The position numbers were made by a program, and so were the translations under genes. Source: a virus. Taken from it: DNA of 64,000 nucleotides. A model generated the notes under the pieces. That model searched no databases, was not told where the DNA came from, and saw nothing but the letters and a program-made list of their open reading frames with translations. Position 1 is the first letter of the stretch. Every line of letters starts with the position of its first letter. Of the stretch, positions 2,455 through 64,000 are shown piece by piece. Location of the stretch: positions 245,178-309,177 of the IMG/VR virus record IMGVR_UViG_3300033995_001164, one strand, 5' to 3'.

Positions 2455-3519
2455 TTAAGTATTAATCAATGATAATGAATCGTCCGCATCTGCTTGAACT
2501 GAGAATTCATCTGTTTGTGGTTTAACCGGTTGTTTAGATGCACAGATTTTTGTAACATCAGCATCAGTAAATGAGGTAAACCCTTTAGATGCTAACGCGG
2601 CTTTAGTCTTTTTACCAAATTTTCCGTCAGGAGTTAATCCTAAACATCCTTGAACTTTTGCAATTGTATTTGATTTACATCCATAGGAATAAGTTCCTGA
2701 ACATGGTTTGTAAGTACTTTTACCGGGTGTTTTACCACCTGTTTTATTACCACCTCCGCCACTACTAGTGTCTTTAATAGTTAATAAAGAATCCTCAACA
2801 CAATTTCTAATTGGTCTGTATATTTGTTTCCATTCAGACTCCGAATCAATGTCGATATCTAAATCATCAAATAAATCACCACTATCGGAATGTGCGTTAT
2901 AATATTTAACTAACGCACAGAAATCAGATGCAGTACCGGATTCTAATTTTTTGAATGCTCCAAATAATTTTTCTTCATCAGTTCCTCCTTGAAATCCGTA
3001 ACTATCATTAACAATTGCGTCTTCAATATCATCAGTAATTGAACGTAAATCAGTATCTTGTAATTTTCGTTGTAATTTGGCAATTTTAATACCCTCAGAT
3101 GAACACATTTCAAACATTTTTTTCACTTTGTTCATTCCCGTATCTTTTGTTACAAACCAATAAACTAATGGTAGTAACGCAAGTCCGGCTGCTCCTCCTA
3201 CAATTGCTCCAGCTGCTGTCGCCCCAACCCCAAGAGATGATAACGCACCTACTAATCCCGTACCTTGTGACGCGGCAATTGCAGTTGCACCAGCGATTTT
3301 AGGTAACGCAACCCCCGCAGCCCCTAAAGCACCCGACGCACCTAATCCTGCTCCCGCAGCGGCTCCTAATCCAGCTCCTGCAACGGTTGGTGACACGTAT
3401 TGTTCTTCAATAATTCCAATTTCTTTTTTATTTTCGTTCAGAGTTTTTGACATATCGTAAGACATCATCAATTTAACTCTTTCTAACGCCTCCGCCGGGC
3501 TATATTTTGGTTGTACCAT
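2455..3519 (-). CDS. Gly/Ala-rich membrane-active protein with C-terminal peptidoglycan-binding domain
   Basis: 354 residues. Order: leader with KTLNEN (about 25-31), a long Gly/Ala-rich hydrophobic stretch (about 47-125) ending in LALLPLVYWFVT, a charged helical middle, an acidic region, a Gly/Thr linker, and a peptidoglycan-binding-1-like domain (about 268-320, YGCKSNTIAKVQGCLGL and DGKFGKKTKAAL). Membrane-inserting and wall-binding parts together suggest an ejected or cell-puncturing protein; this is inference. First gene of the operon reading to 856; TATTTATA box upstream at 3537-3544. Confidence 0.75.
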   Translation of the reverse strand: MVQPKYSPAEALERVKLMMSYDMSKTLNENKKEIGIIEEQYVSPTVAGAGLGAAAGAGLGASGALGAAGVALPKIAGATAIAASQGTGLVGALSSLGVGATAAGAIVGGAAGLALLPLVYWFVTKDTGMNKVKKMFEMCSSEGIKIAKLQRKLQDTDLRSITDDIEDAIVNDSYGFQGGTDEEKLFGAFKKLESGTASDFCALVKYYNAHSDSGDLFDDLDIDIDSESEWKQIYRPIRNCVEDSLLTIKDTSSGGGGNKTGGKTPGKSTYKPCSGTYSYGCKSNTIAKVQGCLGLTPDGKFGKKTKAALASKGFTSFTDADVTKICASKQPVKPQTDEFSVQADADDSLSLINT

Positions 3520-3833: not shown

Positions 3834-4142
3834 TTAATAAAACTCATTTTTTGGTAATTGGAGTGGGTTAATTAAATAATATTCATTTAAGAATATGATT
3901 AGTTCATCTTCATCTAATTCGATTGTCTCATGTTCAAAAATTCCCCCTTCAAAATCGTCCTCATCATCTCCGAAAAAATCGAATGTTTCTGTGACAAGGT
4001 CAAATCCGTATTCCTCAACAATACTATAATCGATTGTGTCATTTCTTAACACATCTTCTTCATCATCTATAGTTCTAAATGATACCTCAATCATATTAGT
4101 CTCTCCGTTCAAATAATATGATATAATTTCTTTAATTTCCAT
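3834..4142 (-). CDS. Acidic hypothetical protein
   Basis: About 102 residues, strongly acidic in the second half (FFGDDEDDFEGG, ELDEDELIIFL). A longer frame begins at a TTG at 4160; the ATG at 4142 (MEIKEIISYYLNG) is preferred because a degenerate TTTATA box ends just before it. No family recognised; the charge suggests nucleic-acid mimicry or binding to basic partners, but nothing more can be said. Confidence 0.65.
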   Translation of the reverse strand: MEIKEIISYYLNGETNMIEVSFRTIDDEEDVLRNDTIDYSIVEEYGFDLVTETFDFFGDDEDDFEGGIFEHETIELDEDELIIFLNEYYLINPLQLPKNEFY

Positions 4143-4211
4143 AATAACTTTTATAAACAAATATGTTAAAATATCTCAAAAGACAATATTTTTATCACTA
4201 AATCGCATAAA

Positions 4212-4235
4212 AAACCCCTCCGGTTAGAGGGGTTT
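4212..4235 (-). terminator. Terminator of the 4248-5603 gene
   Basis: Stem AAACCCCTC / GAGGGGTTT with a 6-base loop; on the minus strand it ends in a T run. Confidence 0.85.
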
Positions 4236-4247
4236 ATTAAATTAGTT

Positions 4248-5603
4248 TTAAAGTTTAATATCACCACCAACATTAATCATTTTTCTTATTTCGTTTTCAT
4301 TATGTTTTTTAGATAATGGTGTTTGCATAATATTTAAATTTTCTCCCACACTTTTTAATTCACCAAAAGTCTTAATTGGGCAATTTTGGATAAATAAATT
4401 TTCTACCGATTCTAATTTCCCCAAAGACTTTAAATTAAGGCAATTCATAATTCTTATATATTTTGCCGATTTTATATTACCCAAAGATTCTAAATTAGGA
4501 CAATGTTGGATATCTATCATTTCGGCGAATGTTACAACACCTAAATTTTCAATTGATGTCTCAGAAATCACTAAAATATTTACATATTTTAACATATTTA
4601 ATGATTTTAAATTAGGACAATTACGAATTTCTAACGATGTAACACTTTTTAAGTTTTCTAAAGATTTAAAATTACAATTATTTAATACAAGTCTTCCATC
4701 AACTGATGTTAAATCACCTAAAGTATTGGTTGAGTTAAGAATTAAATCTCCTTTAGACCCATCTTTAATATATTTTTGTATTTTCTTTTGTTCAGCGATT
4801 TGATGATTTTTAGAACGTTCCCCAGTCGAACGTCTTGTAACAAATATATTATTTAGGTTTAGTATAGATATAAATGTTTGAATATCTTTAGAGTTAATTT
4901 GTAAATCTGACCCATTATAACCATCTATAGTTCCATTACTAAGTACCGCCAATGCCACTACTACCATCTTTTCCCATCGGTTAGGAAATGACTCTTTTAA
5001 CTTTTCAATCATTTGTGGTGATTTTACCTTAATATAGTAAAAAGTTACGTTATTTTTATAGTAATAGTCATTAAAGTGGTCAGGCGATTTAAAAGTTGTA
5101 CACCAAGCCGAATCTTTTTTACCGTTACCACAATCTCTAAAAGAGAAGTGAGATAACCCTAATTTTCTTGACGCCTCGTGTGTATGAGGTGACATAATTA
5201 GTAAATCTTCATTATTTACTACTGTGTCATAATCCGACTCTAAACCTTTATTTGAAACACCTTCACTTGATTGGTTTAAACCATCTACCTCAGAATATAA
5301 ATCTTTAAAAGTTTTAAACTGATTAATATCTTTTGTTTTAGTTTTACCTTTATTTAAAAAAACATCGTATTCCTCAATCGTATTTCTTAATTGGTCTAAA
5401 TCTGGTTGTTCACTCATCCATATTTTAGACATCCATCCAACATATTTATTTGTTTTAGATGGGTCAATAGATATTAGTTTTTCTAATATATCTTTAGGAA
5501 GTAGGTTTAATTCAACGTATTTTCTAGCTTGTTTAACATTTTCGATTAAAATATAGGAAGATAAAATGTCTTTTTTTTCTTGTTCTGTTATAACTATTCT
5601 CAT
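4248..5603 (-). CDS. Leader-bearing protein with WCTT domain and leucine-rich-like repeats
   Basis: 451 residues. The leader MRIVITEQEKKDILSSY matches the capsid-targeting-like motif. Residues about 45-115 (DPSKTNKYVGWMSKIW, INQFKTFKDLYSEVDGL) and about 140-205 (SAWCTTFKSPDHFNDYYY) match the protein at 18613, which has KTNKYLPLL and KWCTT at equivalent places. From about residue 285 there are degenerate leucine-rich-type repeats (SLENLKSV, SLGNIKSAK, SLGKLESVEN). A recognition module on a possibly packaged enzyme-like domain is plausible, but function is unknown. TATTTATA box at 5608-5615 and own terminator: a single-gene late unit. Confidence 0.75.
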   Translation of the reverse strand: MRIVITEQEKKDILSSYILIENVKQARKYVELNLLPKDILEKLISIDPSKTNKYVGWMSKIWMSEQPDLDQLRNTIEEYDVFLNKGKTKTKDINQFKTFKDLYSEVDGLNQSSEGVSNKGLESDYDTVVNNEDLLIMSPHTHEASRKLGLSHFSFRDCGNGKKDSAWCTTFKSPDHFNDYYYKNNVTFYYIKVKSPQMIEKLKESFPNRWEKMVVVALAVLSNGTIDGYNGSDLQINSKDIQTFISILNLNNIFVTRRSTGERSKNHQIAEQKKIQKYIKDGSKGDLILNSTNTLGDLTSVDGRLVLNNCNFKSLENLKSVTSLEIRNCPNLKSLNMLKYVNILVISETSIENLGVVTFAEMIDIQHCPNLESLGNIKSAKYIRIMNCLNLKSLGKLESVENLFIQNCPIKTFGELKSVGENLNIMQTPLSKKHNENEIRKMINVGGDIKL

Positions 5604-5626: not shown

Positions 5627-5660
5627 ACAAACAACCCCTCCGGTTAGAGGGGTTGTTTGT
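5627..5660 (-). terminator. Terminator of the 5662-6705 gene
   Basis: Perfect 14-bp stem (ACAAACAACCCCTC and its complement) around CGGTTA, followed on the minus strand by a T run. Confidence 0.9.
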
Positions 5661-5661
5661 T

Positions 5662-6705
5662 TTATTTAAATTTACTCATTCTGTTAAACATCTCCGAGAT
5701 TTTATTTTTTTGTGATGTGAAGTCTTCCATAATGTCTTCATCAATTTCACTCCAATCATCATCACCGGTGTGAGCTTTGATTTCTTCCCATGATTTATCT
5801 CTCGGGTCGAATTTATCAAGGTCTAAGTCAAATGAATCATCATCTTCGTCTTCGTCCTCATCACCATAATTAGCTCCTGGCCAAGTTGATGCATCATCTC
5901 CATCATAATCCATAAATTCATCTTCGTCGTCTTCATTATAACTGAATCTTTGGTATGGCCCCGCTTTACCTGGTCCTTCACTATCAAAGTCGTATGCTCT
6001 GTCCATATCTGCGTAGATTCCTTGGGAACCTGAAACATCTACTTCATCTATTTCTTCATCTGCCCACGCAGACTCCATTTTCTCATATTCAACTTCTTCC
6101 TCATCATCATATTCGTTAACCGGATAAACACTACCTGGCCCATTTGAGTCAAAATCATATGCAGGTTCAACTGAATCAACATTCATATCATCAGCGTTTC
6201 CACCTTGTTCGTCTAATTCATCTGTTTCTAATTCTTCATCTTCAAAACCATCATCATCAATAACATCGTCTTCTTTATATAGATTCTTATTTCTTCCTTT
6301 GAATGTGTCAACATTGTTTGATGAACCTTCAATGTAATCAAACCCTGCAGTTGGATTTAAATCTTCTTCATCATATATGTCATCCAAATGACCTGTTTCT
6401 TCTTCCATGTGTCCATAATTACATTCGGTACACATACCTTCAGTCATCATAGCTCCACATTCATCACAAACTTCTTTAGTTTCAACCTGTTCGTTGATTC
6501 CCATGTTTGTATATCTTTTAACTTCACCTTTATTATTGACAACAAGTCCGTGTTTATCACCTGCCGGGTCAAACACATATAATGGTTGAGTATTTGATAC
6601 TTCAGGTTGCATTGTTTGATAACCGTTGTATAAACTTTTGTGTTGGTCTAGTATGTCAGACTTTTCAGCTGCAGATAATTGACCTATTCCGTAATTTGTT
6701 CTCAT
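5662..6705 (-). CDS. Highly acidic protein with zinc ribbon
   Basis: 347 residues with long Asp/Glu runs. N-terminus IGQLSAAEKSDILDQHKSL is a variant of the late leader also seen at 41948-42109 (LSAEEKNSILEQH). A four-cysteine cluster, CDECGAMMTEGMCTECNYGH (about residues 79-98), suggests zinc binding. Two near-copies of a module (YDFDSNGPGSVYP / YDFDSEGPGKAGP) lie in the acidic part. Abundant acidic residues fit a scaffold or internal head protein; inference only. Confidence 0.75.
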   Translation of the reverse strand: MRTNYGIGQLSAAEKSDILDQHKSLYNGYQTMQPEVSNTQPLYVFDPAGDKHGLVVNNKGEVKRYTNMGINEQVETKEVCDECGAMMTEGMCTECNYGHMEEETGHLDDIYDEEDLNPTAGFDYIEGSSNNVDTFKGRNKNLYKEDDVIDDDGFEDEELETDELDEQGGNADDMNVDSVEPAYDFDSNGPGSVYPVNEYDDEEEVEYEKMESAWADEEIDEVDVSGSQGIYADMDRAYDFDSEGPGKAGPYQRFSYNEDDEDEFMDYDGDDASTWPGANYGDEDEDEDDDSFDLDLDKFDPRDKSWEEIKAHTGDDDWSEIDEDIMEDFTSQKNKISEMFNRMSKFK

Positions 6706-25751: not shown

Positions 25752-25773
25752 TAAAAAATTTTATTAAATAAAA

Positions 25774-25795
25774 AACCCCTCGTTTAGGAGGGGTA
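25774..25795 (-). terminator. Terminator of the holin-like gene
   Basis: ACCCCTC / GAGGGGT stem with T run on the minus strand. Confidence 0.8.
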
Positions 25796-25801
25796 GTTAA
25801 T

Positions 25802-26053
25802 TTACTCTTCAGTTTCTTTACTTTTGTTTTTATTAATCCATTTGTCTACCGAACCGATACCAAATGACCCTAAAACTAACCATGTAAAGGCGTTGAAAAT
25901 GAACTCGTTTATCATTAGGTTTTGACCTAAATAACCTGTGATAATATCCGCAACTGCGAAAGCTATCATCATGATGAAAGCTAAAAAGCCAACAACACTT
26001 TTCTCATTGATTGAGTTATCGTCATTGAATAACTCTCTAAAAAATTTTTTCAT
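25802..26053 (-). CDS. Two-helix membrane protein, holin candidate
   Basis: 83 residues. Two hydrophobic segments (about 20-42 and 50-70), short charged N-terminus (MKKFFRELFNDDNS) and a charged C-terminal tail (KWINKNKSKETEE), as in many class II holins. Preceded by a GATATTTATA box, so late. The endolysin at 20820 has no signal peptide and would need such a partner. Confidence 0.6.
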   Translation of the reverse strand: MKKFFRELFNDDNSINEKSVVGFLAFIMMIAFAVADIITGYLGQNLMINEFIFNAFTWLVLGSFGIGSVDKWINKNKSKETEE

Positions 26054-29263: not shown

Positions 29264-29625
29264 ATGTAATATTCTATTGTGTTAACAGGTATCTTGAAAG
29301 TTTCAACAAACCATTCTTTAAATCCTTCTTTCCAATTATCATTAAAATAACCTTCTAATGAGTTAAGAAGTCCTTGGTCTTCAACATACAACATTGGACT
29401 TAATGGTTTTCGGTAATCTGATGCTCCGGTCCAATAGTCTTCACCATATAACCTGAACAATGTTTCATCATCCATATAATCACCTAAATAAAATTCAATT
29501 GCGTCTTGTTCCTGACCCCAATCATCAGTTAAACGAGTCCAATTAATATTTTCAATATCCAAAGTGTTGTTTAGGTAATTTTTAACCGTTTGATTTAATT
29601 TACTTTCTGTTATAATGTATTTCAT
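29260..29625 (-). CDS. MKYIITES-family protein
   Basis: 121 residues. Leader MKYIITESKLNQTVKNYLNN; ends with the family C-terminal motif GFKEWFVETFKIPVNTIEYY. Its ATG lies only ten bases after the last degenerate repeat of the 29.6-29.85 kb array, so array and start region are contiguous. Function unknown; the family is expanded to twenty or so copies here. Confidence 0.75.
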   Translation of the reverse strand: MKYIITESKLNQTVKNYLNNTLDIENINWTRLTDDWGQEQDAIEFYLGDYMDDETLFRLYGEDYWTGASDYRKPLSPMLYVEDQGLLNSLEGYFNDNWKEGFKEWFVETFKIPVNTIEYYI

Positions 29626-29852
29626 AATTTACTTAATTTGTATTGTTCCTCCACCAGACTTTTTTTTCCGAAATAAATCAATGTGGGTTGTTGTCACCTC
29701 CAATTTGTAATGTTCCTCCACCTTTTTCCTTTTTCGATGTAACGCAAAAGCGTTGTTGTCACCTCCAATTTGTAATGTTCCTCCACCAATAAACACGGCT
29801 CAAATATTCATCAATAGTTGTTGTCACCTCCAATTTGTAATGTTCCTCCACC
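29620..29852 (-). CRISPR. CRISPR-like array B, 3 identical 36-base repeats plus 1 degenerate
   Basis: Minus strand: repeats at 29817-29852, 29752-29787 and 29687-29722 are identical over 36 bases (start GGTGGAGGAACATTACAAAT, end GGTGACAACAAC). Unique spacers are 29, 29 and 31 bases. A fourth, truncated repeat ends the array at 29655 (21 recognisable bases, 29635-29655). The first repeat is the in-frame C-terminal codons of the 29759-30106 gene; the second is read in another frame and contains that gene's stop; the third lies outside any gene. Identity across frame change and stop points to selection or recent copying at nucleotide level. Confidence 0.65.
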
Positions 29853-30106
29853 CACGCTTTCGTTAGGTCTTCTATTTCCTCATTATTTAACTCAAAAAAG
29901 GATTTCAAAAATGACCAAATATGAGTATAAGAGACATGAGCAACCCCATTTTTTTCATTATAGTCAAACATAACTTCACCATCTTTCATAAAGAATATGT
30001 GGTTAGGGTATTCGTCTGTTTTATATGGTTTCAAATCACCATATTCGGTGTTAAGGTATTTGAGAATACCTCGATTTTTTTGACTTTCTGTTATAATGTA
30101 TTTCAT
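29759..30106 (-). CDS. MKYIITES-family protein running into array B
   Basis: 115 residues. Leader MKYIITESQKNRGILKYLN, core KDGEVMFDYNEKNGVAHVSY, then LTKAWVEEHYKLEVTTT, whose codons are the first array repeat. After a 29-base spacer the frame shifts relative to the repeat, giving the terminal WWRNITNWR. The homologous C-domain at 58160 ends in RWRNITN by the same shift. Confidence 0.75.
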   Translation of the reverse strand: MKYIITESQKNRGILKYLNTEYGDLKPYKTDEYPNHIFFMKDGEVMFDYNEKNGVAHVSYTHIWSFLKSFFELNNEEIEDLTKAWVEEHYKLEVTTTIDEYLSRVYWWRNITNWR

Positions 30107-32392: not shown

Positions 32393-33421
32393 TCAATCAA
32401 CATTATTTTTTAAATATTTTTCAACAAATTTTTCTTCATATCTTTTTGTAAAAATAATTTGTTTTGTTTCATACAATTCTTTTAATTTTTTAGACGATAA
32501 ATTAGGTGTATCTCTTAATTTGTATGTAAGATTATTTTCATCACAAAATTTAATTGCCGATATTTTTTTTCTAACCACCGAATCACTATACCAAAGTTTT
32601 TTTGGCTTAATTTCTATTAAATATTTGTTTTTTAATATAAAATCAGCGGTATAAGTTCTGTTATTACCTTTATAATCAGTATAATTTATCTGATACATAT
32701 TAGATTCTGCATTAATCCACTCAATGTTATTTTTTTCAATAACATTAATCATGTATGATAATTCTTTAATACTTCTAAAAAACCAATTATTATACCATCC
32801 TGACCAACCATTACCGGAACCAACAGGACTTGGTTTTCCAAACATTGGGTTATTCTCTCCCGAACTATTTTTAGATTGTTTTATTTTTAATTGTTCTAAT
32901 TTAACATTAGCAATTTCGGTTCCATATTTTTCAACCCAAACATCATAGACAGATTTTCCAAACATAGGGTTATTCTCTCCTGAAGTATTTTTAGATTGTT
33001 TTATTTTTAATTTTTTCATTTTTTCTTCCGCAACTTCAACTCCATATTTATCAACCCAATAATAATAATAAGTAGAGTCCCCAAACATAGTGACATTACT
33101 TAATGATAAAATTCTCATTTTTTCCCTAAATTCTTCTGTTTTATATACTGAAAAATCTTTTTTTTCTCTCATTTTTTGTTTGGTGTCTTCAGTATGTTTT
33201 TTATTAAAAAATGGATTTAACTCACCAAATTTTCCAAACATAGGGTTATTGTCGCCAAGAACTCGTTGTTTCATACGTTCTCTCCTATCTTCGGTTATAG
33301 TTAATTTTAACCCACAACTTTTACAATTACTATTTTTGTTATCCGCTTTTATCATATTGTATTTGTTAGTGTAACTTATTGTTACACCACAAATAGGGCA
33401 TTTTCTTGTGAGATTTGACAT
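32393..33421 (-). CDS. Homing endonuclease: zinc finger, NUMOD3 repeats and Vsr-like PD-(D/E)XK domain
   Basis: 342 residues. N-terminal zinc ribbon (CPICGVTI ... CKSCG), several NUMOD3-type repeats (GDNNPMFGKFGELNPFFNK, GENNPMFGK twice), then a C-terminal nuclease-like domain with YTADFILKNKYLIEIKPKKLW, the D-(x)-E-x-K pattern of Vsr-type enzymes. Encoded opposite to and just upstream of the broken kinase at 33522, a position that recalls T4 mobA next to the bypassed gene 60. Confidence 0.85.
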   Translation of the reverse strand: MSNLTRKCPICGVTISYTNKYNMIKADNKNSNCKSCGLKLTITEDRRERMKQRVLGDNNPMFGKFGELNPFFNKKHTEDTKQKMREKKDFSVYKTEEFREKMRILSLSNVTMFGDSTYYYYWVDKYGVEVAEEKMKKLKIKQSKNTSGENNPMFGKSVYDVWVEKYGTEIANVKLEQLKIKQSKNSSGENNPMFGKPSPVGSGNGWSGWYNNWFFRSIKELSYMINVIEKNNIEWINAESNMYQINYTDYKGNNRTYTADFILKNKYLIEIKPKKLWYSDSVVRKKISAIKFCDENNLTYKLRDTPNLSSKKLKELYETKQIIFTKRYEEKFVEKYLKNNVD

Positions 33422-43490: not shown

Positions 43491-43497
43491 ATAAAAA

Positions 43498-43521
43498 AAC
43501 CCTACCGATTAGAGTAGGGTT
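43498..43521 (-). terminator. Terminator of the 43531 gene
   Basis: AACCCTAC / GTAGGGTT stem, T run on minus strand. Confidence 0.85.
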
Positions 43522-43530
43522 GTTATTTTA

Positions 43531-43812
43531 TTAAGTTAATATAGTAAAAATTAAAGAAACCAATAAACCCGAAAGAAATCCAACTAATACCCCAACAAAA
43601 AAACCATAATTTTTAGTCGGTTCCGGTATAATCTCAATAGTTTTTGGTTTATTATATTTCTTTCGATAGTAAGGTTTTTTCTTTTTAACCGGTTTAGGTT
43701 CAACATTTTCTTGTAATTTTACTCTTTGTTCAGGAAACACAGTTGGTATATCCCTTTTTTCTTTATCGAAGAGCTCATCTTCGATGTGTTTGCTTAATTT
43801 TCTTGTCATCAT
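43531..43812 (-). CDS. Basic protein with C-terminal membrane anchor
   Basis: 93 residues. Lys/Tyr/Pro-rich middle (KPVKKKKPYYRKKYNKPK) and one hydrophobic helix at about 70-92 (FFVGVLVGFLSGLLVSLIF). Tail-anchored topology. Unknown function. Confidence 0.65.
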   Translation of the reverse strand: MMTRKLSKHIEDELFDKEKRDIPTVFPEQRVKLQENVEPKPVKKKKPYYRKKYNKPKTIEIIPEPTKNYGFFVGVLVGFLSGLLVSLIFTILT

Positions 43813-44361: not shown

Positions 44362-45315
44362 CTAATTAATTTTAACACCCTTCTCAAGTGTTTCCTCAAG
44401 ATAATCTATAAAAGCTTTTGTTCTATCTTCTTTACCGTGATAATAATTACCATAACCTATTAGTTCTCCACTTTGGTCTGGTAATGGTTTTATTTCTTTT
44501 ACACCATTCTCAATTATATCACCAATCCAATCAACAACGACCTCATTCAATTTTTTTGTTTTTTTAACTCCATTTTTAATCACACCATCAATTCTTCCTT
44601 TGTGTTGATATACATCATAGTAAGTTTCATTAACACCCTTGTCAATCACCTTATCAATTATGTCTTCTCCCACATATTGTCGTGGGTTAGAACTTTTAAC
44701 ACCATTTTCAAGTGCATCATCAATGTCTCCGGTATATTCACGAGATTCTAATTTTGAAGTCATTTTCACTCCATCTTGTATGACAATTTCAATAACACAA
44801 GAACCATCCATTTGTAATGATTTGTTGGTTAGTTTCACCCCTTTAGTTTTCTTCACACCATCTTGTATGATGTCATCAACCTCACCTTCAGTAATGTTCA
44901 TTTCCAAACAGGTTTCTTTTACTCCGCCTTTAATAACATTTTCAACCCAACTTGTATTATCTTCCGGGTTCCAACAAGTTTCTTTAATCCCATTCTCAAA
45001 AACCTCCATCAGATTATATGATGGTGTTTGAGATGGTGACGCGGTATTCTTAGAACCATTCATTACATTATCTTCTACCCATTTTGTGATGAGGTGTTGG
45101 TTTTGAACAACCTCCAATGAGGCATACCCAAAAAGATTTTTAAAGAAATTAAAATTATACCACAGGGTTTTACTTTCAGTTAATTCTATCACCCATTGTT
45201 TGGACTCCGTAAAGATTAACCAAGTGGAACCATTATGATTATATGTGTCAACACCTTGGACAGAAGAATTAATTAAGGTGTTTATTATTTTTCCCATAAT
45301 CTTTTTATTAGACAT
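44362..45315 (-). CDS. Repeat protein, diverged 22-residue units
   Basis: 317 residues from MSNKKIMGKIINTLINSS (box ATATATTTAAAAATA before it). The N-terminal 90 residues share SxxWxI, WVIEL, LWYNFNFFKNLF and LITKWVE with the array genes at 62683-64000. Then about eight diverged units follow the pattern (I/V)(E/D)xx(I/L)xxGVKxT, mostly 22 residues apart. Here the DNA of the units has diverged while the protein pattern is kept, which argues that the repeats are translated and selected as protein. Confidence 0.75.
   Translation of the reverse strand: MSNKKIMGKIINTLINSSVQGVDTYNHNGSTWLIFTESKQWVIELTESKTLWYNFNFFKNLFGYASLEVVQNQHLITKWVEDNVMNGSKNTASPSQTPSYNLMEVFENGIKETCWNPEDNTSWVENVIKGGVKETCLEMNITEGEVDDIIQDGVKKTKGVKLTNKSLQMDGSCVIEIVIQDGVKMTSKLESREYTGDIDDALENGVKSSNPRQYVGEDIIDKVIDKGVNETYYDVYQHKGRIDGVIKNGVKKTKKLNEVVVDWIGDIIENGVKEIKPLPDQSGELIGYGNYYHGKEDRTKAFIDYLEETLEKGVKIN
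44365..45084 (-). repeat. Diverged 66-base coding repeats
   Basis: Units such as ENVIKGGVKETC, VIDKGVNETYYD, VIKNGVKKTKKL and DIIENGVKEIKP recur at 22-residue spacing (some at 23, 29 and 42). The DNA is not conserved enough to look like CRISPR. Confidence 0.65.
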
Positions 45316-45589
45316 TATTTTTAAATATATTTGGTTGAATCTCAGCATCTTCAAAAGATTCTGTGGATACAAACTCACTTTTCAAATAATTAATTACATG
45401 TTCCATCATCTCGTAATCTTTAAAATCTCCGTTTTTATGTCCAGCCTTCATTAATAAAGACATACCCGCAGCCAACATCATTGTTGATTCCTTAACAGAT
45501 AATGCCTCTTGGTCTTTTGGGAATCCAATGTCAAAGTAGTTTCTATCGTTTTCACGTCTCCACGTTACACCAATTGTTAATCCATCCAT
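45308..45589 (-). CDS. Hypothetical protein
   Basis: 93 residues, MDGLTIGVTWRRENDRNYFD ... MLAAGMSLLMKAG. Host-type promoter. Overlaps the repeat-protein start by 8 bases. Confidence 0.65.
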   Translation of the reverse strand: MDGLTIGVTWRRENDRNYFDIGFPKDQEALSVKESTMMLAAGMSLLMKAGHKNGDFKDYEMMEHVINYLKSEFVSTESFEDAEIQPNIFKNNV

Positions 45590-46149: not shown

Positions 46150-46176
46150 TAACAAAGATTCCACATAACCAAAAAA

Positions 46177-46241
46177 AGGGTTGGGATTCCATCGAACGAA
46201 GTGAGTGACCGGACGAAGTGAGTGACCGGACGAAGTGAGAC
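46177..46241 (-). repeat. Terminator element copy 1, with 17-base tandem repeats
   Basis: Contains the shared core GGGATTCCATCGAACGAAGT plus the 17-base unit ACGAAGTGAGTGACCGG at 46196-46212 and 46213-46229 and a partial third. On the minus strand the hairpin is followed by T7. Lies just after the cupin-like gene. Confidence 0.65.
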
Positions 46242-46760: not shown

Positions 46761-47058
46761 TTTTTTTTTTGTGTTTAAATTGTAATGATTCCCAACTTGC
46801 TCCCCTGTTAGAGTTAAAATGTTATGTTGTGACTATCTTTCAAATTGTGATGATTCCCAACTTTGAATTTCGTTGAGGCTAACTTACAGCGGTTGCGACT
46901 ACCTTTCAAATTGTGATGATTCCCAACTCAAAATGTTATTCAATTGGGGATTTTATGTTGTAACTACCTTTCAAATTGTGATGATTCCCAACCCTATTAA
47001 CGAGGTTTATATCGGTGTCCTCGTTGTGACTACCTTTAAAATCGAGACACATCCCAAT
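46761..47058 (-). CRISPR. CRISPR-like array A: 5 repeats of 36 bases, 4 spacers of 29-30 bases
   Basis: Minus strand. Full repeats at 46957-46992, 46892-46927 and 46826-46861 (start GTTGGGAATCATCACAATTT, end GGTAGTCACAAC, with 1-base changes); degenerate end copies at 47023-47058 (5' part decayed) and 46761-46796 (3' part decayed). Spacers 30, 29, 30 and 29 bases, all different. No gene covers it. A host-type promoter at 47262-47269 points into it through about 200 bases of leader. From memory the 3' half resembles type VI-B (Cas13b) repeats, which are also 36 bases with 30-base spacers and this orientation. No cas gene is adjacent except TnpB. Confidence 0.8.
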
Positions 47059-47261: not shown

Positions 47262-47269
47262 CAAAGATA
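47262..47269 (-). promoter_or_regulatory. Host-type promoter pointing into array A
   Basis: TATCTTTG on the minus strand, six bases past the tnpB stop codon; no gene starts downstream, so it must serve the leader and array. Confidence 0.6.
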
Positions 47270-47274
47270 AGTAA

Positions 47275-48477
47275 TTATTCTCTAACTAACAAACTTTCTC
47301 TGATATTTTTTGCTGCGTTTATATCTCTATCGTGGTGTTCCTCACAAGACTTACAGGTCCATTCCCTTTGGGATAACTTTAACTCAGTATTTATATCCCC
47401 ACAGTTAGAACAAGTCTTACTTGTATTACGGGGGTCAATCCTATTAAATTCAATTCCTTTTGAATTACAAACACTTCCCAAATAATCGACAAATGAACGA
47501 ATCCCGATTCTTGCAGTGGATTTAGCCATATGTTTATTCTGTAACATAAATGACAAACGAATATCCTCAACTTGTATTTTAGAAAACTTACCTTTAGTTA
47601 AAACACCAACAACATATCTGTGATATTCTTTTCTAATATTATTTAATTCATTCTGTAATCTACCCTTCTTCTCAATTACTCTCCAATAATTTTTGGATTT
47701 AGGTTTACCCTTGTTTAATCTGTTCTTACGAGATATACTCTTTTGAATAATTGAAATCTTATCTTCCAATTTTTTAATCCTCTCAATTGGTACCTGATAT
47801 TTAAGTCCTTCGGATGTAATTGCCATATCTTTAATACCTACATCAATTCCCAATGATTTACCCGAACTATTAATCTTAACAATTTCAGTATCCTTTAAAT
47901 CCAATGTTAAAGATAAATACCAATTACCATCAGACTTCCTATGGATTGACATTAACTTTGGTGTAGACCCTTTGAATTGTTTATGAAACTTACATTTTAT
48001 AATTGGATTTATCCCAACTTTTTTAAGTAAAGTAGGAGCAAACCTAATTTCATTATTATCCCAATCCAAACTTAAACTTCCACGACTAATACTATTTGAA
48101 TTAGTCGTTAATTTCAATATATTCGTTTTTTTCTTATACGAAGGTTTTCTTGATTTTGGTTTTTTTCTGAAATTTTTAATTGATGTGACCAAAGATTCAG
48201 AAACATATTCCCTAAATATTGATGGAACATTATCAAACCAATTAATCGTTGAAAGATAATTAGAGAAAAGAGATTTACTCTTTAAGTTCGGAGCAGGAAA
48301 GTCCTTAAAATCTTTCCCATCAATAAATTCACTAACCAAAAGATTATATCCCCCTCTTAATTTATTACCAATATCAAATAACCATCTCTTTTGTTTATCA
48401 TCCGGGTATATCCTATACTCAACTGATACTCCAACATAAGATGGACCCTTTTTTCTTTCAACCAAAAAATGATTCAT
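47275..48477 (-). CDS. tnpB: TnpB-family RNA-guided nuclease (IS200/IS605 OrfB type)
   Basis: 400 residues from the ATG behind a TATATTTG promoter at 48497. RuvC-I Asp 212 in LGIDVGIKD, RuvC-II Glu 304 in IQVEDIRL, zinc finger Cys 356/359 and 375/378 (CSNCG, CKSC), RuvC-III Asp 385 in DRDINAAKN: all catalytic residues present. The family makes a guide RNA from the 3' side of its gene and cuts matching DNA; Cas12 nucleases descend from it. No tnpA is nearby. A CRISPR-like array follows at 197 bases on the same strand, which is unusual. An active RNA-guided nuclease is likely; whether it uses the array is open. Confidence 0.9.
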   Translation of the reverse strand: MNHFLVERKKGPSYVGVSVEYRIYPDDKQKRWLFDIGNKLRGGYNLLVSEFIDGKDFKDFPAPNLKSKSLFSNYLSTINWFDNVPSIFREYVSESLVTSIKNFRKKPKSRKPSYKKKTNILKLTTNSNSISRGSLSLDWDNNEIRFAPTLLKKVGINPIIKCKFHKQFKGSTPKLMSIHRKSDGNWYLSLTLDLKDTEIVKINSSGKSLGIDVGIKDMAITSEGLKYQVPIERIKKLEDKISIIQKSISRKNRLNKGKPKSKNYWRVIEKKGRLQNELNNIRKEYHRYVVGVLTKGKFSKIQVEDIRLSFMLQNKHMAKSTARIGIRSFVDYLGSVCNSKGIEFNRIDPRNTSKTCSNCGDINTELKLSQREWTCKSCEEHHDRDINAAKNIRESLLVRE

Positions 48478-48504: not shown

Positions 48505-48540
48505 AAACAAAGAATTCAAATCACCAAATATATAATGAAA

Positions 48541-48590
48541 AAAAGGAATGGGATTCCCTCGAACGAAGTGAGAAACCGGACGAAGAGCAC
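48541..48590 (-). repeat. Terminator element copy 2
   Basis: GGGATTCC-CTCGAACGAAGTGAG core and CCGGACGAAG tail shared with copy 1; with it, brackets the cupin-array-tnpB block. T7 on the minus strand. Confidence 0.65.
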
Positions 48591-49955: not shown

Positions 49956-49993
49956 TAATAAATTTTTTATTCCACCAAATATATAATAAAAAA

Positions 49994-50041
49994 AAGGGTT
50001 GGGATTCCATCGAACGAAGTGAGTCCGAACTGGGAGAGACC
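49994..50041 (-). repeat. Terminator element copy 3
   Basis: Core GGGATTCCATCGAACGAAGT plus GAGTCC. Stem GGATTC / GAGTCC around TCG-AA-CGA; T8 follows on the minus strand. Confidence 0.7.
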
Positions 50042-50564: not shown

Positions 50565-50567
50565 ATT

Positions 50568-50690
50568 CTAAAAAAAAAGGGGATGGGATTCCATCGAACG
50601 AAGTGAGTCCGGACTGGAAGGTATACGAATATCCCCTCCAATTAAAATATTAATCAAATCACCTTCAGTAAGTCTAACAATATTCCCCAT
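50568..50690 (-). CDS. Small leader peptide (RLTEGDL type)
   Basis: 40 residues: MGNIVRLTEGDLINILIGGD then codons supplied by terminator copy 4. The first 20 residues match the leader of the 30379-31077 protein (VRLTEQELIDLI). GTATTTATAAT box upstream. Either a decayed late gene cut short by the terminator element or an internal head peptide. Confidence 0.5.
   Translation of the reverse strand: MGNIVRLTEGDLINILIGGDIRIPSSPDSLRSMESHPLFF
50579..50628 (-). repeat. Terminator element copy 4
   Basis: Same core as copies 3 and 5, extended by CCGGACTGGAAGGTATA; T9 on the minus strand. Lies inside the small frame at 50568. Confidence 0.7.
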
Positions 50691-51334: not shown

Positions 51335-51360
51335 ATTGATAAATACTTGACTATCAAAAA

Positions 51361-51410
51361 AGGGCTGGGATTCCATCGAACGAAGTGAGTCCGGACTGGA
51401 AGGTATATGA
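51361..51410 (-). repeat. Terminator element copy 5
   Basis: Nearly identical to copy 4 over about 48 bases, including the upstream GGACTGGAAGGTATA. Confidence 0.7.
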
Positions 51411-57510: not shown

Positions 57511-57559
57511 CAATTATTTTTCACCCCACCAAACAATTAATAACTTTTTTATAATTAAA

Positions 57560-57583
57560 AACCCCCACCGTTAAGTGAGGGTT
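57560..57583 (-). terminator. Terminator of the 57590 gene
   Basis: AACCC-CAC / GTG-GGGTT stem, near-copy of the 55832 terminator. Confidence 0.75.
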
Positions 57584-57589
57584 GTTATA

Positions 57590-58153
57590 TTAATAGAATG
57601 TTTTTAATTTCATGTATGGTTCCAAATTATATTTGTCTATAATCTGCTTGAAGATTTGTTGTCTGTTTCTTAAACCCAATATGTTTTTTTTACTAATAAA
57701 TCCATAACCGAATCCTGAATCACCACTTAACCCCACAACTTTATAATATGTTTGGTCATGAAGGTTTGTCGGATATAATCTTGCTGTAAACTTGTAAATC
57801 ATATTGTCTTTTGACCCGAATCTAAAATCCCCTAATTCTTTTTCATCACGATGTAGTGGTCGTGAATTATTGTTTAGTCCAAGTTTTTCAACCAACGCGT
57901 CATGTATATATAACGCCATTTTGTCTGTCGACATATAAACAAGTGGTGTGTGAGTATCCTCACTAAACCCCATAATATCACCATCATAAAGAACCTTTAT
58001 TAAATTATCAATCCCGCCCATTAGTTTGGATGTAACCGCCATCCCTGATTGTTTTAACATGGATTTTAGCGCATCTTTTTTTAATTCGGACTGTTCGTTA
58101 ATAACCCCGCCCATTATCTCGTGTATCCTATGTATGTTCTCTTGTAAGTTCAT
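57590..58153 (-). CDS. Leader-bearing protein (LQENIHRI type)
   Basis: 187 residues. N-terminus MNLQENIHRIHEIMGGVINE is repeated almost exactly inside the upstream protein (LQENIHRIQSMMGVINES). The body is unknown. Its ATG lies just after the end of array H. Confidence 0.7.
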   Translation of the reverse strand: MNLQENIHRIHEIMGGVINEQSELKKDALKSMLKQSGMAVTSKLMGGIDNLIKVLYDGDIMGFSEDTHTPLVYMSTDKMALYIHDALVEKLGLNNNSRPLHRDEKELGDFRFGSKDNMIYKFTARLYPTNLHDQTYYKVVGLSGDSGFGYGFISKKNILGLRNRQQIFKQIIDKYNLEPYMKLKTFY

Positions 58154-58159
58154 ATTATC

Positions 58160-59515
58160 TTAATTTGTAATGTTCCTCCACCTAATTAAAACGGTATAAA
58201 ATCCATAGTTTGTTTCCGTTACCCTTAAATTATAATGTTCCTCTATCCATTCCTTTGTTAGGTCCCGAATTTGTTTCCATTCCATACCAAACATTGATTG
58301 TAAATATGACCAAATCTCATCATAACTAACATAAACCTCCCCATTTTTTTTATTGTAGTCAAAAACTACTTCATCACCTTTTCTATAATAAATAAAATTG
58401 CGATGTTTTTTAGTTTCAAATGGTATTAAATCACCATACTTATCGTTTAACCATTTCTTGGCAATGTTATTTAATTTACTTTCGTTAATAACCCCCATCA
58501 TCGATTGGATTCTATGTATATTCTCTTGTAAACCCGGTTGTTTTAAATGATTGAATTTAAACTCTATCTTCGCCCCTTTTGGGTCTTGTGGTGTCCATCT
58601 AAATCTCTTACCGATATAATCTTTTAATTCACCCCTCATTTTGATTTTGATTGCGTCTTCCACCTTGGTTGGATTAAGATTAGGGATTTCCCCCTTTAAG
58701 TAGTTCTGTGGTGTATATACCTGTGTGTTGTTTTCTCTTTTAAATACATCATACACATCTATATTAACAATGGCGTTATCATCACCCACCTCTATATTCC
58801 TTACTTTGAACTTTATGTTTGTGTTTGGAACCATTTGTTCCGGGTCTTGATTCCAATAATTGTATGTCTTGGCTGTCTTCTTTCTCTTTGTTAAATCAGG
58901 TTCGATTGTTTTTAATTTCTTTACCTTATTCTTCATTATATCATCATGACTATATCCCCGCTCCAATAGTTTCATCTCATCAGGAGTTAATGTATATACA
59001 CTATCGAATGTATCATCACCCCATCCCACAGGATTGGCATTACTTATTTGTCTACTTGTGGATGAAGAATAATTTTTTGTTACCTCATACCATTTATCAT
59101 CTTTGAATATGTAAATAGGGTACCACCCGTATGATACAACTTTATAGTATGGAGTTCCTTTTGGGTCTTCGGACCAATATCCCTCTAAATTTGAACCTCT
59201 GAATGGTAATTGAGCTATTGTGTATAGTTTCGCCTTTGGATTTGATATAACCTTCCCACTTTGTTTTCTTGGGTCAACAAAGTTTTCCTTCGTTAAGTTT
59301 GAGTAGTCCCCATCTTTTCTAAAGTTTAATACATACAACTCCAAAATATATTGCTCGAATCCTTTAGGTATTCCCATATATGGCGCAAAATTCTTGATGG
59401 CTTCTAATAAAGATGCTCTTGTTCTATTCTTTTTCTTCTCCACATCTAACAACTTGAATAATTTGGAAATTACTCTTAGTGATGGCTCATTGGATTGTTC
59501 TGCTAATCTTATCAT
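58160..59515 (-). CDS. Two-part late protein with internal leader and family C-domain
   Basis: 451 residues from MIRLAEQSNEPSLRVISKLF (TATTTATCAAT box). Residues about 1-325: unknown domain rich in Trp/Tyr. At about 327 LQENIHRIQSMMGVINES, a leader motif, then a complete small-family domain (KWLNDKYGDL, RKGDEVVFDYNKKNGEVYVS, LTKEWIEEHYNLRVTET). It ends RWRNITN through the frame-shifted second repeat, like the 29759 gene. The internal leader suggests gene fusion. Confidence 0.75.
   Translation of the reverse strand: MIRLAEQSNEPSLRVISKLFKLLDVEKKKNRTRASLLEAIKNFAPYMGIPKGFEQYILELYVLNFRKDGDYSNLTKENFVDPRKQSGKVISNPKAKLYTIAQLPFRGSNLEGYWSEDPKGTPYYKVVSYGWYPIYIFKDDKWYEVTKNYSSSTSRQISNANPVGWGDDTFDSVYTLTPDEMKLLERGYSHDDIMKNKVKKLKTIEPDLTKRKKTAKTYNYWNQDPEQMVPNTNIKFKVRNIEVGDDNAIVNIDVYDVFKRENNTQVYTPQNYLKGEIPNLNPTKVEDAIKIKMRGELKDYIGKRFRWTPQDPKGAKIEFKFNHLKQPGLQENIHRIQSMMGVINESKLNNIAKKWLNDKYGDLIPFETKKHRNFIYYRKGDEVVFDYNKKNGEVYVSYDEIWSYLQSMFGMEWKQIRDLTKEWIEEHYNLRVTETNYGFYTVLIRWRNITN
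58162..58248 (-). CRISPR. CRISPR-like array H: two repeats, one spacer
   Basis: Minus strand: diverged repeat 58213-58248, spacer of 30 bases or 29 if the repeat is taken as 37, and a 3'-truncated repeat ending GGTGGAGGAACATTACAAAT (58163-58182). Same organisation as the end of the 29759 gene. Minimal; named only by comparison with array B. Confidence 0.45.
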
Positions 59516-59690
59516 TATTGATAAATATATGGTCAATAGAAAACCTCCTCGTCGATAATAAGGTTCCGGACTTATATTGTGGGTTTATAAGTCTCAGGAC
59601 TTATATGGTTTTTATCATATAATGAGGAATATATGTCTTTTATCATATATTACACATTTTGGTAATATTATGAAGAACACTTATTATAAT

Positions 59691-60092: not shown

Positions 60093-60641
60093 ATGACAGA
60101 TAAACTAAAGCATAGAATCATTAACTACCTAAATAAAGAATATTCCGGGATTGTTGATTATGAAACGGATGATTGGAAAGAGCATATATTCTTTATGAAA
60201 GACGGGAAAGTTCTTAATTATTACAGTAAAATAAATGGGGTTGTTTATATCTCTTATTCTAAAATTTGGTCATTATTAGAAACCTTTTTTGGATTAAATT
60301 ATCAGGAAGTACAAGACCTAACAAAAATATGGGTGGAGGGGCATCACAGATTTAAGGTAACAACAACGGTCGAAGAAAGAGGAGAATTGATTGACTTGGT
60401 GGAGGAACATCACAGATTAAACGTAACAACAATCGTGCCGAATTGCTTTGTTCACTGGGACAAGGTGGAGGAACATCACAGATTAAACGTAACAACAACA
60501 AGACATGACCGTTATGGAAATGTTACACCGGAGGAACTTCACAAATTAAAGTCAACAACAACCTTCGGTTGTTTTATCGTTGATTTACCTTTGGTAGAAA
60601 ACCATTACAAATTAAACTACCCCGCTAACGGTGAAATATGA
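60093..60641 (+). CDS. Small-family protein with 22-residue C-terminal repeats (array C)
   Basis: 182 residues. MTDKLKHRIINYLNKEYSGI, FMKDGKVLNYYSKINGVVYI, LTKIWVEGHHRFKVTTT, then repeats VEEHHRLNVTT twice, EELHKLKSTTT and VENHYKLNYP, spaced mostly 22 residues. The repeats are the translation of array C. No leader of the ITE type; host-type promoter two genes up. Confidence 0.75.
   Translation: MTDKLKHRIINYLNKEYSGIVDYETDDWKEHIFFMKDGKVLNYYSKINGVVYISYSKIWSLLETFFGLNYQEVQDLTKIWVEGHHRFKVTTTVEERGELIDLVEEHHRLNVTTIVPNCFVHWDKVEEHHRLNVTTTRHDRYGNVTPEELHKLKSTTTFGCFIVDLPLVENHYKLNYPANGEI
60332..60628 (+). CRISPR. CRISPR-like array C inside a gene
   Basis: Repeats of 36 bases at 60332, 60398, 60464, 60527 and 60593; the second and third differ only in the last base (start GGTGGAGGAACATCACAGAT, end CGTAACAACAA). 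Spacers 30, 30, 27 and 30 bases, all multiples of 3, so the gene frame stays open. First and last repeats are diverged, as is common at array ends. Confidence 0.55.
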
Positions 60642-62171: not shown

Positions 62172-62696
62172 ATGGAAATAGATTTATCAAAATATAGTAT
62201 TGGGGAACTTATTGAATTACAGGACAAGATTGATAATACAATACATAACTACAAGGATGGTTATTTGTATATCTGTAATGTTCGTTCATATGGTCACAAT
62301 TGGAGAGACAATTGTATTCATAACATTCATACTCTTCAGCGACTTTGTCATAAGTATGGTGGTGAGGATGGTATTGTTGATGTCTATTCTAATAACCCCG
62401 ACCTTTCTATGATTGAGAACTATGGTGACCTTATGTATATCGTCTCCGAGTCCGACTATACTAAGTGGAAAGATTATGAATATCTTAAAGGTTTTATCCC
62501 CACCATTTCTAAACGATTGGATGAATGGGAGAATAGAGATAATATTCCTTTTCACTCTCGACCATCGTTTGCTCCGATGTATAGTAGAGAAGAGTTAAAT
62601 AATATGGTGGAAAAACTTGCTCACTATGATATGTCTTTTGTTGCTCCCACCCCTTATAAACCGAATGAAAATTTAGACACAGATGATTACAGATAA
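62172..62696 (+). CDS. Hypothetical protein
   Basis: 174 residues from MEIDLSKYSIGELIELQDKI; the promoter excludes the longer frame from 62112. Ends in PTPYKPNENLDTDDYR. The DNA of this end is repeated before the next array gene at 63235-63290, without the rest of the gene. Overlaps the first array gene by 14 bases. Confidence 0.7.
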   Translation: MEIDLSKYSIGELIELQDKIDNTIHNYKDGYLYICNVRSYGHNWRDNCIHNIHTLQRLCHKYGGEDGIVDVYSNNPDLSMIENYGDLMYIVSESDYTKWKDYEYLKGFIPTISKRLDEWENRDNIPFHSRPSFAPMYSREELNNMVEKLAHYDMSFVAPTPYKPNENLDTDDYR

Positions 62697-63207
62697 ATTT
62701 AAAAGAACAATTTTTGATAAATTAACCGATGACCTATCTCATGTGGAATTGATTTTCTACAATGACTCCCTTTGGTTTATTAACCGAGAAAAGAAGTATT
62801 GGTATTTGGAATTAGAAAAATCAGGTAAATTATATTGGAGATGGCAATTCTTTACTAATTTTTTCTCTCCATTCACAATGGAACGAAATGAATATGAACC
62901 ACTTATAAAAGAATGGGTAGAGTCAGCATTAAATTGCGGGGTTACAACAACAGTAAACAAGGATTCAATCGCCGGATGGACGGTAGAGTCAGCATTAAAT
63001 TGCGGGGTCACAACAACTCAAATAGGCACCATCAAAAAACTGAAATGGGTAGAGTCAGCATTAAATTGTGGGGTGACAACAACGTTGTTGATGAAATTCC
63101 ACCAAAAACTATTGGTAGAGTCAGCATTAAATTGTGGGGTGACAACAACAGTACCATCTAAGTTATCCGTTGCAATAAAGGTGGAGTCAGTATTAAATGG
63201 ATTATAA
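62683..63207 (+). CDS. Array gene 1: ITDKFKRTIFDKL-type protein with 22-residue repeats
   Basis: 174 residues. N-domain: MITDKFKRTIFDKLTDDLSH, SLWFINREKKYWYLELEKSG, LYWRWQFFTNFFS, then KEWVESALNCGVTTT, followed by three more VESALNCGVTTT units separated by 10 variable residues, and a degenerate last unit. First of three tandem paralogues reaching the window end. Confidence 0.75.
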   Translation: MITDKFKRTIFDKLTDDLSHVELIFYNDSLWFINREKKYWYLELEKSGKLYWRWQFFTNFFSPFTMERNEYEPLIKEWVESALNCGVTTTVNKDSIAGWTVESALNCGVTTTQIGTIKKLKWVESALNCGVTTTLLMKFHQKLLVESALNCGVTTTVPSKLSVAIKVESVLNGL

Positions 63208-63272: not shown

Positions 63273-63734
63273 ATGATTACAGATAAATTTAAAAGAACAA
63301 TTTTTGATAAATTGAGTGAAGATTTATCCCATGTTGAGATAATATCATACCGTGATTCCTTTTGGTTTATTAACCGAGAGAAAAAATATTGGTATTTGGA
63401 ATTTAAATCTTCAGGCGAACTATATTGGAGATGGCAATTCTTTATTGAATTTTTTGAATTATTCACGATGGAGAGAAACCAATTCGAGCCAATCATATTA
63501 GAATGGGTAGAGAAAGTATTAAACCATGAGTTAATAACAACTGAAATCAATATTGGTAATCATGTAGGTATCGAAGAAGTCCTAAATGGCGGAGTGAAAA
63601 CATCGTATAGAGCAAATAAAGACGGATTTTTGGTGAGTTATATATTAAAGAAAGGTGTCACGGCAACCATTAGTAATCATATACGTGGTCTCAAATGTGT
63701 GGAGGAAATATTAAATAATGGAACAACAATATGA
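63273..63734 (+). CDS. Array gene 2: paralogue with diverged repeats
   Basis: 153 residues. MITDKFKRTIFDKLSEDLSH, SFWFINREKKYWYLEFKSSG, LYWRWQFFIEFFE, EWVEKVLNHELITT, then diverged units EEVLNGGVKTSY, YILKKGVTATIS and VEEILNNGTT at 21-22-residue spacing. Stop overlaps the next start (ATGA). Confidence 0.75.
   Translation: MITDKFKRTIFDKLSEDLSHVEIISYRDSFWFINREKKYWYLEFKSSGELYWRWQFFIEFFELFTMERNQFEPIILEWVEKVLNHELITTEINIGNHVGIEEVLNGGVKTSYRANKDGFLVSYILKKGVTATISNHIRGLKCVEEILNNGTTI
63506..63734 (+). repeat. Diverged 63-66-base repeats of array gene 2
   Basis: Four units recognisable mainly at protein level. Sequence decay without frame loss argues for maintained translation. Confidence 0.55.
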
Positions 63735-64000
63735 TTACAGATAAACTAAAACAATTTATTTTTAATAAATTAACCGATGACCTATCTCATGTGGAATTGA
63801 TTTCATATGAAGATTCCTTTTGGTTCATAGATAGAGAAAACAAATATTGGTATTTGGAATTTCAAAAGTCCGGCAGATTATATTGGAGATGGGGATTTTT
63901 TTCCAATTTTTTCCAATTATTTTGTATGGAAAGAGATGAATATGAACCACTTATCACCGAATGGGTGGAGTCAGTCCTAAATGGTGGGGTAACAACAACA
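63731..64000 (+). CDS. Array gene 3, cut by the window end
   Basis: 90 residues visible: MITDKLKQFIFNKLTDDLSH, SFWFIDRENKYWYLEFQKSG, LYWRWGFFSNFFQLF, EWVESVLNGGVTTT. Third tandem copy; start overlaps the previous stop. Continues beyond the window. Confidence 0.75.
   Translation, partial: MITDKLKQFIFNKLTDDLSHVELISYEDSFWFIDRENKYWYLEFQKSGRLYWRWGFFSNFFQLFCMERDEYEPLITEWVESVLNGGVTTT
63964..64000 (+). CRISPR. First repeat of a further array, cut by the window end
   Basis: GGTGGAGTCAGTCCTAAATG ... GGGGTAACAACAAC at 63964-63999 has the repeat form of array D. Only one repeat is visible, so the array itself is a prediction. Confidence 0.4.

Follow-up and report, generated by a model that had tools for sequence, protein, structure and literature searches.

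Why should a 36-base repeat at the 3' end of a small phage gene be kept without a single change in its next two copies, when the first of these is read in another frame and holds the stop codon and the second is not translated at all? The locus lies in 64,000 nucleotides of viral DNA (positions 245,178 to 309,177 of IMG/VR record IMGVR_UViG_3300033995_001164, hereafter the window), which form part of a 309-kb phage record. Its sense strand is the minus strand, and the repeats together with the spacers of 29, 29 and 31 nt between them, here called array B, are laid out as follows:

29759..30106, minus strand: gene carrying array B (from the ORF list and its paralogues), beginning MKYIITES... 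and containing WVEEHYKLEVTTT
29817..29852, minus strand: repeat 1, 36 nt, coding, GGTGGAGGAACATTACAAATTGGAGGTGACAACAAC
29788..29816, minus strand: spacer B1, 29 nt, matching the gene upstream of terL in contig L089
29752..29787, minus strand: repeat 2, 36 nt, in another frame, holding the stop codon
29723..29751, minus strand: spacer B2, 29 nt
29687..29722, minus strand: repeat 3, 36 nt, untranslated
29656..29686, minus strand: spacer B3, 31 nt
29631..29655, minus strand: terminal repeat, truncated and degenerate, of the leader-distal type

An earlier note on this DNA had described the three identical repeats, the first as the coding C-terminus of the protein, the second as thrown out of frame by its spacer and the third as untranslated, and in this it was right: repeat 1 encodes VEEHYKLEVTTT at the end of ORF 30106..29759 (minus strand), the 29-nt spacer breaks the frame so that repeat 2 is read as WWRNITNWR* with the stop inside it, and repeat 3 is untranslated according to the ORF list. 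In 100 dinucleotide-shuffled versions of the window there were 0 matches; the real sequence has 3. The truncated fourth copy (29655-29631) was absent from that note, which did not recognise the array as CRISPR-like; a degenerate 3'-terminal repeat is also what CRISPR arrays have.

No Pfam or PHROGs family matched the product of the array-B gene. For the fold of its AlphaFold model (alpha-beta4-alpha-alpha, pLDDT 92.7) the search gave no solved relative and returned only proteins of uncultured phages. Paralogues without an array have the domain in common up to a W.E..Y.L.V segment and lack the repeated VTTT, and the seed of the repeat is therefore the native end of the gene. The codons of the repeat include ones that the phage otherwise uses infrequently, GTG for 11% of Val and GAG for 21% of Glu. 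A start resembling MKYIITES is common to many otherwise different small genes (at 29625, 30106, 36431, 36820 and many other positions of the window, and in L007 at 4137-5119); this N-terminus is where the model is least confident, and presumably it could be a targeting or cleavage signal, for example a prohead signal.

Identity irrespective of coding status had been taken to mean either very recent expansion or selection on RNA or DNA. Within arrays of this kind the repeats are identical or nearly so, while pairwise spacer identity is 25%, compared with 26.5% in shuffles. Since the spacers are unrelated while the repeats are identical, the units did not originate by duplication followed by divergence, and each new repeat copy arrived with unrelated DNA. 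A recent tandem duplication of one 65-bp unit, which the earlier note had named as something that would refute its reading, would account for identical repeats, but not for spacers that are no more alike than shuffled sequence and of which one copies another phage; we rule it out for array B and give it practically no credence. The interpretation given in the note is thus supported in part, with simple duplication excluded. Spacer turnover, which the note had suggested looking for in related phages, does occur: none of the four 30-nt spacers is common to G006 and G007, although identity between these two reaches 92.8% in the orthologous gene body, 92-100% in the repeats and 88.6% in the trailer.

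As query for a scan of IMG/VR we took an 18-nt core of the gene-proximal spacer, B1. Apart from copies of this phage, the core matched a single 4.3-kb contig, L089, which is unrelated and resembles Bacteroidota phages and in which positions 3420-3448 are identical to the complete spacer (29/29 nt). With the adjacent AAC the match extends to 32/32 nt (L089 3417-3448, window 29788-29819), and it is the sole similarity between L089 and the window. The protospacer sits in the gene directly upstream of that for the terminase large subunit (PF04466), which by its position probably encodes the small terminase subunit; the best matches of the large subunit are to phages of Bacteroides, Parabacteroides, Flavobacterium and relatives. 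Equivalent scans with spacers E2, F1 and B2 returned self hits only, which shows that chance hits are rare. One of the four spacers scanned in IMG/VR therefore matches a foreign phage, through the only protospacer found, and searches of INPHARED with single spacers gave chance-level matches only. Judged by its sequence, array B is a CRISPR-like array with phage-derived spacers, of which at least one is a piece of another phage, and a memory of other phages is thereby shown.

Spacer B1 runs in the sense direction of its target gene, in frame with the protein encoded there (TIDEYLSRVY). A crRNA transcribed from the gene strand would therefore be unable to base-pair with the mRNA of that target, an argument against RNA targeting of the Cas13 type for this spacer, though not against DNA targeting. 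Flanking this one protospacer we found TAAA at +7 downstream and no TTTA upstream, and this single case did not yield an acquisition motif. The AAC preceding it equals the last three bases of the repeat and, as a single case, may reflect chance, microhomology or a motif.

None of 38 spacers (24 of them from this phage) matched the fetched DNA of this phage or its relatives above shuffled background, and self-derived spacers were therefore ruled out for the DNA fetched; selection against self-targeting would lead one to expect this lack of self matches. GC content is also higher in the 24 own spacers than in the phage (0.37 vs 0.31, p = 0.0012). The lack of self matches bears on whether the arrays are a by-product that brings the phage no benefit, the host Cas1-Cas2 inserting off-target at a gene end that resembles a leader-repeat junction. 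A phage-derived spacer and units of CRISPR-like size would be expected then, as would coding repeats that form no crRNA-like hairpin and the absence of a leader at array B, where neither a conventional leader nor a promoter consensus was found within the 900 bases searched around it. Off-target capture should, however, mostly sample the DNA of its carrier, to which we found no match in the DNA fetched, and the same repeat type recurs at many loci and in several phages; we consider this explanation unlikely.

At least five further arrays occur in the same phage, one of the same architecture lying near the start of the phage record, and similar arrays turned up in other phages when IMG/VR was scanned with a pattern. 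Most occupy the 3' ends of genes from one small-protein family, array C being non-coding. They mostly have 3-6 repeats, in units that are nearly always 65-66 nt long and that consist of 36 + ~30 nt in every phage examined. Those in the window are:

46761..47058, minus strand: array C, non-coding, repeat GTTGGGAATCATCACAATTTGAAAGGTAGTCACAAC, spacers of 30, 29, 30 and 29 nt, first and last repeats degenerate
58158..58247, minus strand: array D, one repeat, a 29-nt spacer and a truncated repeat at the 3' end of gene 58160-59536
60332..60617, plus strand: array E, in frame, at the 3' end of gene 60093-60641
62916..63204, plus strand: array F, in frame, four repeats and a truncated copy, in gene 62683-63207
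63504..63734, plus strand: array G, decayed, in frame, in gene 63273-63734
63964..64000, plus strand: first repeat of array H, inside which the record of the window stops
44362..45378, minus strand: long gene of 22-aa units (NGVK family)

Array H continues in contigs L042 and L037, with five near-identical repeats. The NGVK-family gene looks like an old in-frame array. Related phages carry long genes of the same 22-aa units (L064 1-1054, minus strand, with L063; L071 2397-3437, plus strand), which have some units in common with the gene of the window and others not. The spacers of these genes fall into two groups, those that are evidently shared (7-8 of 10 residues alike) and those without relationship (~1-2 of 10), so that the genes differ by presence or absence of spacers and not by gradual change. 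Shared spacers lie mostly at the 3' side when the window is compared with G003, and the first unit is common to the window and G006; a polarity of spacer sharing is only partly supported by these genes.

A spacer of 30 nt keeps the reading frame, and the protein then gains 22 aa per unit. In the in-frame arrays none of the 21 spacers has a stop in the frame of the ORF (P about 7e-8), while each of the five remaining frames is interrupted in 9-13 of them; in arrays that are out of frame or non-coding, 6 of 14 spacers contain a stop. Some arrays have therefore been filtered for an open frame, and these sister arrays stay in frame under protein-level constraint; no such filter acts on arrays B, C and D or on those of L034 and L041, which are out of frame or non-coding. 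The claim that the repeats are identical irrespective of coding status consequently holds for array B, and not for the several sister arrays that are held in frame by selection on the protein. One might go further and regard the 22-aa units, each with a conserved 12-aa and a hypervariable 10-aa segment, as the functional product, to which the DNA pattern would be secondary. The stop-free spacers and the retention of 22-aa units in the long NGVK genes fit such a diversification of protein; yet repeats remain near-identical in those arrays that are out of frame or non-coding, and a perfect match of a spacer to another phage is left unexplained, which makes this reading improbable.

With regard to the class of the repeats, we designed a degenerate pattern from array C and ran it on GTDB genomes. 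It matched nine Bacteroidota contigs, among them Bergeyella, Riemerella and Chryseobacterium, all with repeat arrays with a period of largely 66 nt, and the three loci that were checked all carry Cas13b. The array C repeat is 31/36 identical to a Chryseobacterium repeat beside cas13b (type VI-B). The coding repeats show no more than a moderate likeness to Cas13b repeats (z 3-7 above shuffles, 4.6 for array B), and in most cases this exceeds their likeness to type II-C. The type II-C repeats of Flavobacteriales, mostly of 46-48 nt in units of 76-77 nt, were rejected as a poor fit to 65-66 nt, with one exception of 36 nt. Like the arrays considered here, type VI-B arrays of Flavobacteriia combine a 36-nt repeat with a 30-nt spacer; they differ in that the phage has no Cas13b, that B1 is sense to its target and that the Cas13b hairpin does not form (MFE -1.6 for array B and -2.2 for array C vs -7 to -11 for real repeats), array B lacking the GTTG/CAAC pairing of the Cas13b class (GTTGG...CACAAC).

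Searches of the phage records for Cas13b, Cas1 and reverse transcriptase were negative, and a TnpB-family protein is present. Among 395 Bacteroidota genomes the coding-type repeat gave one hit, at chance level, and a search of 395 Flavobacteriales allowing up to three mismatches did not find the array C repeat. Elsewhere in IMG/VR the pattern tried for canonical type VI-B arrays found none; this pattern also misses array C, every repeat of which is altered. In Flavobacterium columnare, which has 36-bp repeats in both its VI-B and its II-C system, a VI-B array without cas1/cas2 acquires spacers in trans from the II-C Cas1/2 (PMC8092290), and this is the closest precedent for a putative writer supplied by the host.

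Repeats that resemble those of a host could also act as RNA anti-CRISPRs or decoys, binding Cas proteins or drawing new spacers away from the host array to the phage. Such mimicry is established for the Racrs, sequences like CRISPR repeats that occur in phages lacking cas genes (PMC10651486), and array C does resemble type VI-B repeats. Racrs, however, are solitary repeat units, and the survey contains no type VI examples (PMC10651486), whereas the arrays described here have several spacers, turn over and include a spacer from a foreign phage; we doubt that they are decoys.

The TnpB-family protein raises the question of whether the arrays guide a nuclease of the phage itself:

47275..48606, minus strand: TnpB-like RNA-guided nuclease adjoining array C (NF040570, 3.6e-54; best PADLOC model Cas12f)
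47262..47292, minus strand: promoter consensus of Bacteroidota type (TTG-N-TAnnTTTG), ahead of array C and between it and the TnpB-like gene
46165-46218, 48532-48585, 49983-50036, 50567-50620 and 51349-51402: dispersed repeat GGGATTCCATCGAACGAAGTGAG, five copies around the TnpB-like gene

The nuclease gene lies directly upstream of array C on the same strand, as guide arrays for this enzyme might. It is nevertheless near one array only, with no scaffold RNA indicated there by Rfam, a TnpB relative in L024 has no array nearby, and type VI-B repeats of Flavobacteriia account for the array C repeat without TnpB, so that we regard guidance of this nuclease as very unlikely. At arrays B and C alike, no Rfam family came near its gathering threshold. 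The promoter before array C is suggestive only, the window holding 25 matches to this consensus.

Overall, it seems probable that array B is a cas-less, phage-borne CRISPR-like array which host CRISPR proteins write and read, in the service of competition between phages. Repeat 1 is where the coding sequence of a small phage gene natively ends, and new units would form when a piece of foreign DNA of ~30 nt is inserted with a 36-nt copy of the repeat, as in CRISPR adaptation. The host Cas1-Cas2 is the likely writer, because the phage has no recognisable Cas1. Transcripts of the gene would bear repeat-spacer units with which an effector of the host could act against competing phages, our best guess being a type VI-B or II-C system of Bacteroidota. 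A bolder proposal, which we hold to be quite possible though short of an even chance, is that the 3' ends of these genes are themselves CRISPR-like insertion sites: the gene would double as leader and repeat and store memories of rival phages, each in-frame spacer would add 22 aa, and immune memory and protein would co-evolve, possibly with a novel acquisition enzyme.

Viral CRISPR arrays without cas genes are already known (PMC6858448, PMC7162821, PMC11656645), and the descriptions drawn on here place them between genes or do not mention where they lie. The mini-arrays of SPV1/SPV2 and of phages (Medvedeva 2019, PMC6858448; PMC11656645) are likewise short and cas-less, carry spacers from other viruses and probably rely on host Cas proteins. 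As described there, they are intergenic, with repeats identical to those of the host and, in SPV, leaders with promoters; here, by contrast, the repeat is the coding end of a gene, many loci per genome are involved, several spacers are translated in frame, and a host with the same repeat was not found among the 395 Bacteroidota genomes. Huge phages also have small arrays with anti-phage spacers, some without cas genes (Al-Shayeb 2020, PMC7162821), but embedding in ORFs does not feature in the account drawn on here. Within the literature covered, which is incomplete, we found no report of arrays whose repeat is a coding gene end and whose spacers extend the protein, and this embedding in ORFs appears to be new. 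As the known mini-arrays of viruses are taken to lie between genes, and repeats within genes are easily dismissed as protein repeats, gene-embedded arrays would be missed, and they may be common. They would provide a record of phages meeting within one cell, an opportunity to test spacer acquisition outside classical leader-repeat junctions, and a route from DNA acquired by immunity to protein sequence.

Three further features were noticed in this DNA and its relatives. ORF 32393-33421 of the window contains a 120-bp direct tandem duplication (32834-33067) with copies ~82% identical. The portal protein ORF of L017 (2754-5570, minus strand, 939 aa) has an HNH-endonuclease-like stretch at residues ~195-283, which suggests an intein or an inserted endonuclease. 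A hairpin resembling AACCCCTCCGGTTAGAGGGGTT recurs at 4209-4247, 5629-5667, 25769-25807, 43494-43532 and 57557-57595 and is probably a shared terminator.
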